The notes beneath the pieces were generated by a model that was given only the letters and a program-made list of their open reading frames with translations, was not told where the DNA came from and searched no databases. The translations under genes were made by a program, and so were the position numbers. A stretch of DNA of 64,000 bases, from positions 310,001 to 374,000 of the forward strand of contig NZ_JADPJI010000002.1 in the NCBI RefSeq assembly GCF_023073355.1, read 5' to 3'. Below are positions 1 through 38,380 of the stretch, in pieces. Within the stretch, counting starts at the first letter, position 1, and every line of letters starts with the position of its first letter. This DNA comes from Bradyrhizobium sp. 199 (GTDB lineage Bacteria; Pseudomonadota; Alphaproteobacteria; Rhizobiales; Xanthobacteraceae).

Positions 1-1305
1 GGCAAATCGGCGACGGTGTCAAGCGCGACGCCGAAGGGCGCCTGGACCGTCACCTTTCTCCTCTTCCTCTTCATGCTTGTGAACTTCGCCGACAAGATCG
101 TCGTCGGTCTTGCCGGCGTTCCGATCATGACCGAGCTGAAGCTCGAGCCGGAGCAGTTCGGGCTGCTCGGCTCGTCGTTCTTCTTCCTGTTCTCGATCTC
201 GGCAATCGTGGTCGGCTTCATCGTCAACAAGGTGCCGACCCGCTGGGTGCTGTTGACGCTCGCGGTGATCTGGGCGCTGACGCAGTTTCCGATGGTCGGC
301 ACCGTCTCTTTCACCACACTCCTGATCTGCCGCATCGTGCTCGGCGCCGGCGAAGGCCCGGCGGCCGCGGTGGCGATGCATGCGATCTACAAATGGTTCC
401 CCGACGAGAAGCGCACGATGCCGACCGCGATCCTGTCGCAGGGTTCGGCCTTTGGTGTCATCCTGGCGGTCCCGGCGCTGAACTGGGTCATCGTCAATCA
501 TTCCTGGCATTATGCGTTCGGCGCCCTCGGAATCGTCGGCCTGGTCTGGGTCGCCGCCTGGCTCATACTCGGCAAGGAAGGCCCGCTGGACACCCACGCA
601 TCGGCCGTGATCGAACCGAAAATACCCTATCTCCAGCTCCTGACATCGCGCACCTTCATCGGCTGTGTGACCGCGACCTTCGGTGCCTATTGGGCGCTGT
701 CGCTCGGGCTCACCTGGTTCACGCCCTTCATCGTCAAGGGCCTCGGCTTCTCGCAATCTCAGGCGGGCTTCGTCTCGATCCTGCCCTGGGTGTTCGGGGC
801 AACCATCGTCATTCTCACGGGCTGGATCTCGCAGGTGATGTTGGCGCGCGGCTACACGTCGCGGATCTCCCGCGGCGTCCTCGGCTCGGTGCCGTTGATC
901 GTCGGCGGCCTGATCCTCGCGATGATGCCGCACGTCCAAGGCGCGGGCCTCCAGATCGCGCTGCTCGTGGTCGGCTCCGGGCTGTGCGGCGCGATCTACG
1001 TGGTCTGCCCGCCCATGCTCGGCGAGTTCACGCCGACGTCGCAGCGCGGCGCGGTCCTCGCGATCTACGGTGCGCTCTATACGCTTTCGGGCATCATCGC
1101 GCCGCTGGTGATGGGCAGCGTGATCCAGCGCGCCGGCAACATGCTCGACGGCTACATGACCGGCTTCACCATCAACGCCGCGATCATGGTCGGCTCCGGT
1201 CTGCTCGGGCTGCTTCTGCTCTGGCCGAACACGGAAAAGGCCAGGCTGATTGGTGGTGCTGCTTCCCAAGCCGCGCCGCTGAAGAGCGCGGTGTCGCCGA
1301 CGTAA
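1..1305 (+). CDS. MFS transporter, anion:cation symporter-like (5' end may lie outside the window)
   Basis: This is a twelve-helix major facilitator protein of the inner membrane. Hydrophobic segments follow one another from the first residues, with a cytoplasmic loop around residues 190-210 between the two six-helix halves. The first half carries the GEGPAAAVAMHAIYKWFP stretch after helix 4, which resembles the anion:cation symporter group that takes up organic acids; the substrate cannot be read from the sequence. The reading frame is open to the window edge. A GTG at position 16 is the first possible start inside the window but has no convincing ribosome site, so the gene probably starts upstream. 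It converges with the next gene. Confidence 0.85.
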   Translation, partial: GKSATVSSATPKGAWTVTFLLFLFMLVNFADKIVVGLAGVPIMTELKLEPEQFGLLGSSFFFLFSISAIVVGFIVNKVPTRWVLLTLAVIWALTQFPMVGTVSFTTLLICRIVLGAGEGPAAAVAMHAIYKWFPDEKRTMPTAILSQGSAFGVILAVPALNWVIVNHSWHYAFGALGIVGLVWVAAWLILGKEGPLDTHASAVIEPKIPYLQLLTSRTFIGCVTATFGAYWALSLGLTWFTPFIVKGLGFSQSQAGFVSILPWVFGATIVILTGWISQVMLARGYTSRISRGVLGSVPLIVGGLILAMMPHVQGAGLQIALLVVGSGLCGAIYVVCPPMLGEFTPTSQRGAVLAIYGALYTLSGIIAPLVMGSVIQRAGNMLDGYMTGFTINAAIMVGSGLLGLLLLWPNTEKARLIGGAASQAAPLKSAVSPT

Positions 1306-13753: not shown

Positions 13754-13828
13754 GTCGTCAAGGCCGGGCTTGTCCCGGCCAGCCACGTCCTGGCGGCGTT
13801 GGTGGAATAACGTGGATGCCCGGGACAT
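13754..13828. repeat. GTC..GGCCGGGCTTGTCCCGGCC / CCCGGGAC intergenic repeat
   Basis: This belongs to a family also seen at 18931-19012 and 20966-21046. A GCCGGGC-TTGTCCCGGCC hairpin and an ACGTGGATGCCCGGGAC half are separated by about 30 bases. This copy is degenerate at its right end (GGGACATAGG). It shares the 279-base gap 13627-13905 with the preceding element; I see no gene there. Confidence 0.6.
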
Positions 13829-20756: not shown

Positions 20757-20965
20757 TTCAAGCTCTCCCCGCTGCCACCAGCGCAAATCAATCAGAAGCA
20801 TCAGACCTGAGGGGCAGGTTCATGGCAAGTTGATGGCGCGCCGCTCCGGCATGTCCCGAGAATGCCTATGGTTTTAGACGGAGCTAGGCAATGCCACAAA
20901 CAGGGGATGGCGCGAAAAGCAGTGTGCGCGACATCCTCGCCGGGCGAGCGGCCGAAATTAGGATC

Positions 20966-21046
20966 GTCATGCCCGGGCTTGTCCCGGGCATCCACGTTCT
21001 TCGTGCCGCGGGCAAGGCGTGGATGGCCGGACAAGCCCGGCCATGA
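20966..21046. repeat. GTCATGCCCGGGC...GCCCGGCCATGAC intergenic repeat
   Basis: Same family as 13754-13828 and 18931-19012, with outer arms GTCATGCCCGGGC and GCCCGGCCATGAC and an inner ACGT/GCGTGG pair. It lies in the 310-base gap 20757-21066 between the L,D-transpeptidase start and the end of the first duplicated membrane protein gene. The rest of that gap holds the transpeptidase promoter region and nothing else that I recognise. Confidence 0.65.
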
Positions 21047-21066
21047 CGATGTGGATGCAGTCGGCG

Positions 21067-22041
21067 CTAAATCTTGTTGCTCCCCGCCGCGATCCCCAGC
21101 CGCCTCACGATCTCCGTCCCCACCGCGCGCGCCTCCACCCGCGAGCCGATGCGGGGGCTGCGAAACCTTTGTCTGGAGTGCAATCGGATCACGACGATGC
21201 AGTGCTCGTCCTCGGACCGGCCGCGGCGCTCGACCGTGATCGTTTTCACTTCCGGTCCTGCGATATGGTCGGCGCGCAGGCTGCCGTCGCCCCATAGGCG
21301 TTCGACACGGATATCGCTCTCGCGAATGATCCAGAACGCGCCAGTGACCAGGTTGGCGTATCGGTACACGGCGAATGCGGCGATCACACCGAGCGGCAGC
21401 AGCAGGATGTCGACATGGCTGGGCGGCCATCCGCGCCAGAGCTTGTAGGCGTAGGGCACGGCGGACAATGCGATGGCGATCAACGCGACGATGCGGATGT
21501 CCCGCGCGGAAAACGCCTCGAGCGGCTCGCCGAGCCGCATCTCGGGGTTGCTGGCATCGAGCGGATTGACGGGCTCCTCGACATTGGGAACGCCGAACTG
21601 CGTGGCGATCCGGGCCACGGTGTCGCGTACATGGGTGACGTCGGAGATCGGCGGCGACGTCAGGCGCTCCCCCGAGGCCAGCGTGAAGACGAGCTGAAAG
21701 CGGGCCTTCACCCGCTTGCTGCCGGGAACCTGTAATCCGCTGATGTCGTCCTTCGGAACGATCCGCGTGCGAAGCTTCCCGAACGGACTTTGTCGTCCGA
21801 TCAGGATCTCGTCCGGCGTGATGATCCACACCACCGCCGGCGCCAGCATGATGCCGCCGACGAATCCCGCTCCCAAAAGCAGCGCGACCACGGAGATGAT
21901 GATCTCCAGCGTGTCATGTGTGAACAGGCCGGGCGTGAAGCACAGCGCAACGGCCGCAGCAAAAGCGGACATCACCAGCCGCTGCGCGATCGAGGCGCCT
22001 TCACGAAGGCGGATGTCGTTATTGATGGGCGTGTCGTCCAT
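21067..22041 (-). CDS. Membrane protein of unknown function with duplicated TM-hairpin/PH-like unit (copy B)
   Basis: The 324-residue protein is built from two similar halves. Each half has two hydrophobic helices (about 22-68 and 186-235) followed by a beta-rich soluble segment that starts with FWII or WII and ends in an amphipathic helix. The first is WIITPDEILIGRQSPFG ... RIATQFGV; the second is FWIIRESDIRVERLWGD ... IVRRLGIA. The soluble parts resemble bacterial PH-like domains, although I cannot confirm this. It is a paralogue of the next upstream gene, 89 bases away on the same strand. Role unknown; the location is probably the inner membrane. Confidence 0.75.
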   Translation of the reverse strand: MDDTPINNDIRLREGASIAQRLVMSAFAAAVALCFTPGLFTHDTLEIIISVVALLLGAGFVGGIMLAPAVVWIITPDEILIGRQSPFGKLRTRIVPKDDISGLQVPGSKRVKARFQLVFTLASGERLTSPPISDVTHVRDTVARIATQFGVPNVEEPVNPLDASNPEMRLGEPLEAFSARDIRIVALIAIALSAVPYAYKLWRGWPPSHVDILLLPLGVIAAFAVYRYANLVTGAFWIIRESDIRVERLWGDGSLRADHIAGPEVKTITVERRGRSEDEHCIVVIRLHSRQRFRSPRIGSRVEARAVGTEIVRRLGIAAGSNKI

Positions 22042-22130
22042 TGCGGGCGGCTGATTGCGTTCGCGCGAAACTCCACGGACGGGTCCGTGGAGTCAAGCAA
22101 CAAGGGCGAGACTCGCGCCGGTAACGGGAC

Positions 22131-23114
22131 TTAGCGGCGCACCCGTTCGAGAGCGATCCCCAGCCGTCGGGCGATCTCGTCGCTCACCGCCTGCGTCTCT
22201 GCTTTCGTTCCGATGCCCTGGCTGAGGAACTTCTGCCCGCTCAAGAGGTCGATCCTGACGACGTAGCGTTCTCCCTCGGCCCTGCTGTCGCACTCCGGCT
22301 CAATCGTCGCAACGTCGCTGCCTGTAATCGTATCAACAATTGGCTTGCCGTCACGTGTCAACCGTTCGACGCGCAGTTCACGGTGGCGGACGATCCAGAA
22401 TGCGCCGGCGGATGTGTGCGCATATCGAAAAGAGAGGAGGAAAATAATGGCGACGATCGGCACGAATATGACTTCGGCGGTCGCGAGAGGCAGGCCGTTC
22501 CAGAATTTGAACGCGTAGAAAATGGTGCAGAGGCCCGCGATGATCAGGATGATGATTCGCTGGAAGGTGCCGGGGGCCTTTCGGAGGGGGGCGCCTATCC
22601 GCACCTCCATATTGGTGGCGTCAAGCGGGTTCACGGGAGAATCCATATCGAGGACGCCAAGCTGTTCGGCGATCTGTGCTGCGGTTTCACGGACGTGCGT
22701 GACCTCCGGGAATGGCGGCGAGATCAGGTGCTCTCCTGACGTCAGCTGCAAAGCGAGGCGGAAGCATGTTGGGTTGGCCCCGTCGCGATTGATCCGAATT
22801 CCGGATATCTCCTCTCTCCGAACGAATCGTACGTTCGGCTGGCCGAATGGCCGCGTGCTTTCGACGACGATCATGTCTAAAGCGATGGTCCAAAGCTCAT
22901 CGGCGCCGAAGGCTGCTTCGCAGAGCATCGCAATGCCGATCACCAGACCGACCAACGCTGCAACGATCTCTGCGTATCCGTTCCGGGCCCAGCTCGCGAG
23001 GCCGCAAACAGAAATAACCAACACGATGTTCGCAAAGCCAGCCCCCACAAGGCGACCTTCGGAAGATGTATTTTTGCGGAGCAGAATTTCGCTTCCGGTC
23101 GTTGCGTCGTTCAT
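22131..23114 (-). CDS. Membrane protein of unknown function with duplicated TM-hairpin/PH-like unit (copy A)
   Basis: This 327-residue paralogue of the downstream gene has the same plan: helix pair, soluble domain (WTIALDMIVVESTRPFG ... IAEQLGVL), helix pair, soluble domain (FWIVRHRELRVERLTRD ... IARRLGIA). Shared landmarks are SPP-x-x-x-VTHVR-(D/E)-T and NPLDA(S/T)N after the first domain. ATG at 23114 (MNDATT) is used; an extension to 23177 is possible but reads unlike the paralogue. The two genes probably form one operon. I do not recognise a characterised member of this family. Confidence 0.75.
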   Translation of the reverse strand: MNDATTGSEILLRKNTSSEGRLVGAGFANIVLVISVCGLASWARNGYAEIVAALVGLVIGIAMLCEAAFGADELWTIALDMIVVESTRPFGQPNVRFVRREEISGIRINRDGANPTCFRLALQLTSGEHLISPPFPEVTHVRETAAQIAEQLGVLDMDSPVNPLDATNMEVRIGAPLRKAPGTFQRIIILIIAGLCTIFYAFKFWNGLPLATAEVIFVPIVAIIFLLSFRYAHTSAGAFWIVRHRELRVERLTRDGKPIVDTITGSDVATIEPECDSRAEGERYVVRIDLLSGQKFLSQGIGTKAETQAVSDEIARRLGIALERVRR

Positions 23115-23223
23115 TGCGTGCGTCAAACTCCCCCGCCGCGGCGGAAGCTCCGCGAACGGCTTGGGGGAGTCAAGCAAGAAGAGTGTCTGACCCCTGCAGC
23201 AATCTCAGGATGGGCTGCCGTGC

Positions 23224-36074: not shown

Positions 36075-36130
36075 GGGGGCGTGGCTACGTCTCCGGTCGT
36101 CTTTCGGAGTGAGGTGAGCACGGCTGTCTC

Positions 36131-36240
36131 ATTCCCTCCCCCCTTGCGGGGGAGGGGCAGGGAGAGGGGTAGCCATGAACTCCGACCTCTCCCGGAGCCA
36201 CCCCCCTCCCTAGCCCTCCCCCGCAAGGGCGGAGGGAACG
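36131..36240. repeat. 110-base CTCCCCCC repeat, copy 1 (upstream of the DppB-like gene)
   Basis: ATTCCCTCCCCCCTTGCGGGGGAGGGG... is followed by a run to CTCCCCCGCAAGGGCGGAGGGA. A nearly identical copy lies at 38271-38380, also upstream of a gene of the same operon. It can form long stem-loops in the mRNA and may set relative expression of the binding protein and the permeases. Confidence 0.7.
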
Positions 36241-38218: not shown

Positions 38219-38270
38219 TGGGTGGTTCCGAACTCCAGCAGCGCGGATGTGAGGAGGGCAGTGCTCTCTT

Positions 38271-38380
38271 ATTCCCTCCCCCCTTGTGGGGGAGGGGCAG
38301 GGAGGGGGGTAGCCACGAACTCCGACCTCTCCCGGGGCTACCCCCCTCCCCAACCCTCCCCCGCAAGGGGGGAGGGAGCG
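38271..38380. repeat. 110-base CTCCCCCC repeat, copy 2 (upstream of the ABC ATPase gene)
   Basis: Nearly identical to 36131-36240: both begin ATTCCCTCCCCCCTTG and share AGCCA(C/T)GAACTCCGACCTCTCCCGG. Two copies 2.1 kb apart in direct orientation inside one operon could recombine and delete both permease genes. Confidence 0.7.

Follow-up and report, generated by a model that had tools for sequence, protein, structure and literature searches.

Several described proteins combine membrane helices with a pleckstrin homology (PH) domain. The AlphaFold model of EROS, in the available text of PMC9767466, has a PH domain with 2 membrane helices inserted between its strands, and the same text gives EROS deficiency as a cause of chronic granulomatous disease. 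EROS is an orthologue of Ycf4, according to the available part of PMC5379978. In bacteria, the portion of PMC8657885 at hand describes B. subtilis YdbS, with 2 transmembrane (TM) helices and one PHb2 domain, and YdbT, with 6 helices and 3 such domains, encoded side by side; DdE and DdF, which are related to this pair, are there both required to transport a bacteriocin. For DUF2244, Xu et al. 2010 proposed a PHb domain behind 2 N-terminal TM helices (PMC2817789, in the part available).

The subject here is a pair of neighboring genes in a stretch of 64,000 nucleotides from Bradyrhizobium sp. 199, called the window below, whose products each carry 2 hairpins and 2 PH-like domains. The preliminary description knew of no described function for a protein of such a layout. 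That has to be narrowed, since the one-unit YdbS and the three-unit YdbT are described and are related in layout, as far as the available portion of their source goes; otherwise it stands. The family is absent from the available parts of the literature found for Bradyrhizobium with pleckstrin homology, and a literature search that joined cytochrome bd to PH domains and assembly factors gave nothing on it.

Two paralogues built from one repeated unit

The A-type gene (21067..22041, minus strand) encodes a two-unit TM-hairpin/PH membrane protein of 324 residues. The B-type gene (22131..23114, minus strand) encodes a paralogue of 327 residues with the same architecture; both are defined by open reading frame and translation. 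In a single comparison, the 2 proteins are identical at 125 of 321 aligned positions (39%, E = 7e-73). The A-type N-unit is residues 1-163 (21553..22041, minus strand) and its C-unit residues 164-324 (21070..21552, minus strand), as drawn from alignment, profile comparison, and tree, with a separate model and fold searches for the C-unit. Alignment and tree delimit the B-type N-unit as residues 1-166 (22617..23114, minus strand) and the C-unit as residues 167-327 (22134..22616, minus strand). The proposal that these are paralogues with 2 homologous units each is borne out, with both reading frames present at these coordinates and the halves colinear, and the W-I-I/V and R-R-L-G-I motifs that had been matched between halves by eye are true alignment columns.

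The N-half and C-half align colinearly from a strand ahead of the hairpin through the last helix, with hhalign giving 98.1% and E = 6.6e-13 globally and 97.3% and E = 2.4e-11 locally. Profiles built separately for N and C align at 97.7% (E = 1.6e-12), the soluble parts alone at 97.0% (E = 9.9e-11), and the reversed controls of this half-versus-half comparison at 0.2-0.6%. An HMM made from 26 N-units, run on a set of 154 sequences, matches all 26 C-units (23 distinct) with E from 1.4e-13 to 1.9e-6, and both single units, from one-unit relatives described below, with E about 1e-18; the best of 126 decoys (26 reversed and 100 shuffled) scores E = 0.14. A conserved strand E/D-I-R-L precedes each hairpin.

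Four hydropathy peaks, making 2 hairpins, are found in the A-type and the B-type protein alike. The A-type hairpins, drawn from the model and from these peaks, span residues 18-65 (21847..21990, minus strand; peaks 22-40 and 47-65) and 179-228 (21358..21507, minus strand; peaks 184-202 and 208-226). Those of the B-type protein are placed by hydropathy only, at residues 22-68 (22911..23051, minus strand; peaks 22-40 and 50-68) and 187-228 (22431..22556, minus strand; peaks 187-205 and 210-228). Lysine and arginine number 0-1 in each of the 4 hairpin-loop stretches counted versus 8-18 in each PH part, the latter being far longer stretches; both PH domains probably lie on the cytoplasmic side, judging from the sequence.

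Pfam, NCBIfam, PADLOC, and PHROGs place the 2 proteins in no family, either at curated cut-off or at E < 0.03. When 29 family members were run against Pfam, the lowest E-values were 1.2e-4 for LPG_synthase_TM (best of 3 members), 0.0019 for HTH_20 (1 member), and 0.0028 for FA_desaturase (best of 4). These are spread over unrelated families, and we read them as membrane-segment or chance matches. The lowest Pfam E-value over 19 units was 0.0092, and sequence searches of the Protein Data Bank (PDB) gave none below E = 0.07.

Predicted fold and its nearest likenesses

The AlphaFold model of the A-type protein comes from a shallow alignment of 44 sequences, with mean pLDDT 80.6 and pTM 0.66, the 5 models ranging from 68.8 to 80.6; the C-half modeled alone, also from a shallow alignment (18 sequences), has pLDDT 77.1 and pTM 0.58. 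Twice over, the full model has a short strand, a helix hairpin, 6 strands, and a C-terminal helix. The seven-stranded sandwich capped by a C-terminal helix that marks a PH domain appears in the N-half model as E10-14, 6 strands, and H138-149, and in the C-half model as E168-170, 6 strands, and H301-315. In the window, the first of these strands, residues 10-14, is encoded at 22000..22014 (minus strand; model, with the best VIA alignments of the N-half beginning at model residues 6-7) and the remainder of PH domain 1, residues 69-157, at 21571..21837 (minus strand; model and VIA matches 6..157). For the C-unit, the corresponding strand, residues 168-170, is at 21532..21540 (minus strand; models and VIA alignments) and the remainder of PH domain 2, residues 235-315, at 21097..21339 (minus strand; models and fold matches).

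Foldseek with the full model finds as top PDB matches the tandem PH domains of SSRP1 (E = 1e-4), Rtt106, and SPT16. Taken over both domains, these have TM-scores of 0.13-0.30 (query TM about 0.2) and rmsd 16-25, which indicates that the domains match singly but that their mutual arrangement differs. The next matches are the bacterial PH domains 3dcx and 3hsa with target TM about 0.5. Among the VIA-align matches listed for the full model, 4khb_B, which belongs to the Spt16D-Pob3N heterodimer, pairs with the N-half (6..157) at Z = 10.3, and SSRP1 (5umr) pairs with the C-half at Z = 9.5. FACT subunits and Rtt106 are soluble chromatin proteins with no membrane helices; although they are the best Foldseek matches across both halves, they would share with this family the fold alone. 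The expectation of PH-like folds in both halves is thus supported by the full model, the tandem-PH matches, and the C-half model.

The first Foldseek match of the C-half alone is EROS, 8kei_D, with E = 1.6e-4, probability 1.00, and TM 0.41, in an alignment of 165 columns that spans hairpin and PH and runs along the whole unit. The chains at ranks 2-6 come from Tetrahymena, either from complex IV or from the respiratory mega-complex; a literature search for complex IV of this organism with PH domain found nothing. By VIA, the C-half against EROS has Z = 8.4 with 141 aligned and rmsd 5.5, at rank 38 and level with many ordinary soluble PH domains, and SSRP1 leads with Z = 9.6. With TM below 0.5 and these values, the predicted match to EROS is structurally weak, and any hairpin-bearing PH protein might score like it. 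The best VIA alignment places model residues 1..161 on residues 1..99 of the 100-residue PH chain 5umr of SSRP1, with 92 aligned. Because this alignment starts with the very first model residue and spans nearly the whole chain, the strand ahead of the hairpin would be the first PH strand and the hairpin an insertion, and we take the hairpin to interrupt the PH domain just behind that strand. The preliminary description had a helix pair followed by a soluble domain, twice; the repeated order of parts stands, but in the predicted models the hairpin lies within the PH domain, since the conserved strand precedes it.

The unit layout of PH strand or strands, inserted TM hairpin, and PH remainder, which here comes from models only, is the one seen in EROS (CYBC1) and Ycf4, and a further likeness is that both of those serve membrane redox complexes while several relatives here adjoin cydAB. 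Unlike the present proteins, EROS has one unit rather than 2, and no sequence similarity to it was detected. PF02392 and PF15169, which we take to be the Ycf4 and EROS family accessions, have no Pfam row for the 2 proteins, the 29 members, or the 19 units.

The other near system is the bPH_2 family (PF03703, COG3402/COG3428), where, in the available portion of PMC8657885, a membrane hairpin joined to a bacterial PH module occurs singly in YdbS and threefold in YdbT. The likeness of a TM hairpin and a PH fold per unit is given by the A-type models and by the hydropathy of both proteins; the present family differs in having 2 units and in being nearly all in one genus. Neither window protein reaches the PF03703 gathering cut-off, and the one PF03703 match in the window's genome is on contig C7, away from the A/B locus. 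A profile of all units compared with a bPH_2 set gives a weak 60.6% (E = 8e-5; reversed, 6.7% and E = 0.005) and the 2 single units 68.9% (E = 5e-5), with N-units at 15.6% and C-units at 4.7%, the last being under their own reversed control of 12.2%. The bPH_2 proteins extracted also carry residues ahead of the hairpin, so the pre-hairpin strand may not be distinctive here. DUF2244 (PF10003) gave no match to the 2 full-length window proteins; it matched one member in each set, at E = 0.066 of the 29 and E = 0.012 of the 19 units.

Distribution and duplication history

The figures of distribution are samples, and the profile searches scored the best few candidates per genome, so absences are soft. 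The A-type query found relatives in 19 of 41 genomes (1 of 17 genera) and the B-type query in 20 of 295 (1 of 47 genera). A two-unit profile found them in 10 of 397 genomes (1 of 142 genera), a unit profile in 11 of 377 (2 of 139 genera), and the unit profile with the G546 protein added, at class level, in 2 of 385 (1 of 276 genera). Inside the genus, a one-unit query matched 171 of 265 genomes and had no match in 94. Outside Bradyrhizobium, the sampled genomes hold a single relative, the one-unit protein of 162 residues in G546, which belongs to a different family of the same order. The named collection contains 114 stretches that code for a relative, from which 80 A-type loci with 74-91% identity were kept; 79 of these are named Bradyrhizobium and the remaining one (L119) is labeled Frankia sp. 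RB7. The contig of that name has a Bradyrhizobium locus with the usual neighbors, and is perhaps, even probably, from a mislabeled or contaminated assembly.

We built an unrooted tree of 54 units (26 N, 26 C, and 2 single; 49 distinct after identical rows were merged), leaving out the G546 protein. All 26 N-units fall on one side of one branch (support 98/98) and all 26 C-units on one side of another (100/99). The 2 single units are together (98/97), between the N and C groups, with the G769 unit on a long branch. Since the N and C groups are each intact, the duplication inside the gene came first and happened once, provided that the root lies outside both groups, and on the sampling used. The proposed order, a unit doubled within a gene and the gene doubled afterwards, for which a phylogeny of halves had been suggested, is therefore supported. 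The gene duplication is indeed the later step, but a single event is too simple a description of it, with second copies in 7 of 80 loci and one lineage of mixed halves.

Those 7 loci, L046 included, have the second copy adjoining. In the second copy of G307 and L122 (4957-5904 in the latter), the N-unit groups with A-type N-units (100/99) and the C-unit with B-type C-units (100/99). G307 and L122 are probably one strain, their second copies agreeing over the stretch compared, and this copy suggests an exchange of halves between tandem copies. As for one-unit genes, G019 has a free-standing one alongside 2 two-unit copies, and G769 has one at the corresponding locus, between the sigma factor and cydA. 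That a one-unit gene was doubled internally, and that the resulting two-unit gene, present across Bradyrhizobium and occupying a single conserved position in the loci examined, was duplicated in tandem and underwent some exchange of halves, is an account of architecture and history in which we have high confidence.

In 3 pairs of A-type genes, dN/dS is 0.13, 0.25, and 0.24, so this gene is under purifying selection. The one B-type pair, the window versus L046, gives 0.59. The B copy of L113 (4929-5905) is broken into 2 reading frames, probably as a pseudogene.

Upstream element, gene neighborhood, and candidate roles

Upstream of the A-type gene is CTTGAC-N18-GAGTTT (22068..22097, minus strand), a conserved promoter-like motif; the inverted repeat within it (22070-22093) has two 11-bp arms separated by 2 bp. 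The same motif stands upstream of the B-type gene (23145..23174, minus strand), where the A-type inverted repeat is not kept. In the form CTTGAC-N18-GAGNTT it is present, starting 52-62 bases ahead of the start codon, in 77 of the 79 A-type loci whose upstream DNA is long enough (L077 being too short, and L048 and L090 being without it) and in all 7 B-type copies. The related loci, 983,344 bases on both strands, contain 84 matches, which is 77 plus 7, so that the motif occurs nowhere else in them, the matches being counted rather than mapped individually; the window has it twice, once ahead of each gene. A looser form precedes 9 of 10 C-type genes, and the 3 one-unit genes have neither the strict nor the loose form. 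Of the A-type spacers, 51 of 77 are identical, mostly filled by the inverted repeat. A genome scan for the A-type motif gave it as the sole site within 3 mismatches, its own other strand aside, and the element model R1 matches the genome only at the A/B locus, strongest at the A-type site (70.2 bits); its other matches are the palindrome read on the opposite strand, at 27.5 bits, and the site ahead of the B-type gene, at 17.6 bits (E = 1.35).

Read as an RNA hairpin, the element has 93.2% of cells pairing over 28 sequences versus 92.0% when shuffled and 33-44% when slid, a double change is seen in only 1 of 10 pairs, in 3 cells, and P0002 and the C-type copies retain the spacing and not the inverted repeat; this reading was rejected. 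An Rfam search at E up to 1 returned 5 hits, all short of the gathering scores and none at the upstream elements. The element is more likely a promoter whose spacer carries an operator-like palindrome, with CTTGAC presumably the -35, going by alphaproteobacterial promoters; no convincing -10 box was identified in the element. With a promoter-like motif of its own, the PH gene need not share a regulon with cydAB. Other repeats in the window are a palindromic element of the CCCGGGCTTGTCCCGGGC type at 20963-21050, also near 13764, 18938, and 18987, which resembles the repeated extragenic palindromes of many genomes, and a 132-nucleotide direct repeat in 2 copies, 36109-36240 and 38249-38380, that are 89% identical.

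The usual gene row is kinase, response regulator, sigma factor, CcdA-like, thioredoxin-like, PH gene, YkuD, and binding protein. A thioredoxin-like gene upstream and a YkuD L,D-transpeptidase gene downstream are found in 74 of the 80 A-type loci, and several of the other 6 end early. In the window, Pfam on 5 neighbors gives CcdA-like and thioredoxin-like genes upstream of the PH genes and the L,D-transpeptidase gene adjoining. At 12 loci fetched from genomes where no family member was found, an open reading frame of 468-493 residues takes the place of the PH gene, followed in 11 of them by one of 333-337 residues; Pfam identifies the L140 pair as cytochrome bd I and II and was run at these loci on that pair only, cydAB being otherwise assigned by length and place. 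PF01654 confirms the locus cydA in G001, G003, G004, G010, G012, G015, G019, G020, G023, G024, and G769. C-type PH genes are directly upstream of cydA in all 5 fetched genomes (L143-L147), as is the one-unit gene of G769. In 8 of 80 loci, cydB has the A-type gene downstream of it, separated in L045 by the B copy, and in the other 72 cydAB was not found within the stretch available for each. This survey left out the C-type genomes G144, G251, G267, and G319, the divergent copies in G838, G844, and G896, and others.

PF01654 is present in 19 of 23 genomes tested. The window's own genome, searched whole, has no match at E <= 1e-20, and neither do G009, G013, and G018, these being the 4 without one among the 12 A-type genomes tested. 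The PH protein therefore does not need cytochrome bd. We rejected a role for the window's protein in cytochrome bd only, since cydA was not found in that genome, which leaves cytochrome bd as at most an ancestral or alternative client.

Because of the layout and the gene order, our tentative suggestion is an EROS/Ycf4-like scaffold or assembly factor. The module present twice in the protein would be a PH domain interrupted, behind its first strand, by a TM hairpin; the hairpins would be anchored in the membrane and the PH domains would offer 2 protein-binding surfaces. It might then serve a membrane redox complex as EROS does NOX2 and Ycf4 does photosystem I, with cytochrome bd (CydAB) as an early client, going by gene order, and another membrane complex as the client in the window's strain, where cydA was not found. 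We hold this whole statement, mechanism included, to be possible and somewhat short of probable; the gene neighborhood of one genus is a weak pointer to function. The wider idea, that factors of the EROS/Ycf4 type had a one-unit origin beside cydAB, were doubled to a two-armed chaperone, and changed clients where cytochrome bd was lost, is unlikely as it stands.

The main rival makes it a membrane PH protein like YdbS/YdbT that exports, or protects from, membrane-active peptides or other envelope insults. The repeated arrangement is comparable, the related DdE and DdF are needed for bacteriocin transport in the available portion of PMC8657885, the all-unit profile has its weak similarity to bPH_2 (60.6%, E = 8e-5), and an L,D-transpeptidase gene adjoins. 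We think it rather doubtful, with PF03703 unmatched, the only bPH_2 gene of the genome on another contig, the N-units alone at 15.6% and the C-units alone at 4.7%, below the 12.2% of their reversed control, and neither bacteriocin nor exporter among the 5 neighbors scanned by Pfam. A further rival is a sensor of envelope or redox stress whose signal goes to the products of the upstream genes, a histidine kinase, a response regulator, and an ECF sigma factor. Most of the 80 loci keep these genes in one order relative to the PH gene, which would suit such a sensor, and a regulator could be tethered at the membrane by PH domains on the cytoplasmic side. But in L148-L151, all 4 of them genomes without the PH gene, regulator and sigma factor have that order too, with the kinase seen in 3, and CcdA-like and thioredoxin-like genes, at times cydAB, intervene; since genomes without the PH gene retain that system, we rank a role bound to it low, as the least likely of the functions considered. 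Lineage-specific genes of slight functional weight, drifting since duplication, would account for the lack of a match in 94 of 265 genus genomes to the one-unit query and for a fast-evolving B copy (dN/dS 0.59 in one pair) that in L113 is split in 2 frames. That, too, is improbable, given A-type dN/dS of 0.13-0.25 in 3 pairs and an upstream motif kept in 77 of 79 loci.

The family lies below every cut-off in the family libraries searched. Within one genus, it allows the history of a domain doubling to be traced through a free-standing unit, a duplication inside the gene, tandem copies, and an apparent half-swap copy. If the assembly-factor reading is true, it would also provide, in layout, a relative of EROS and Ycf4 that is bacterial and genetically tractable.
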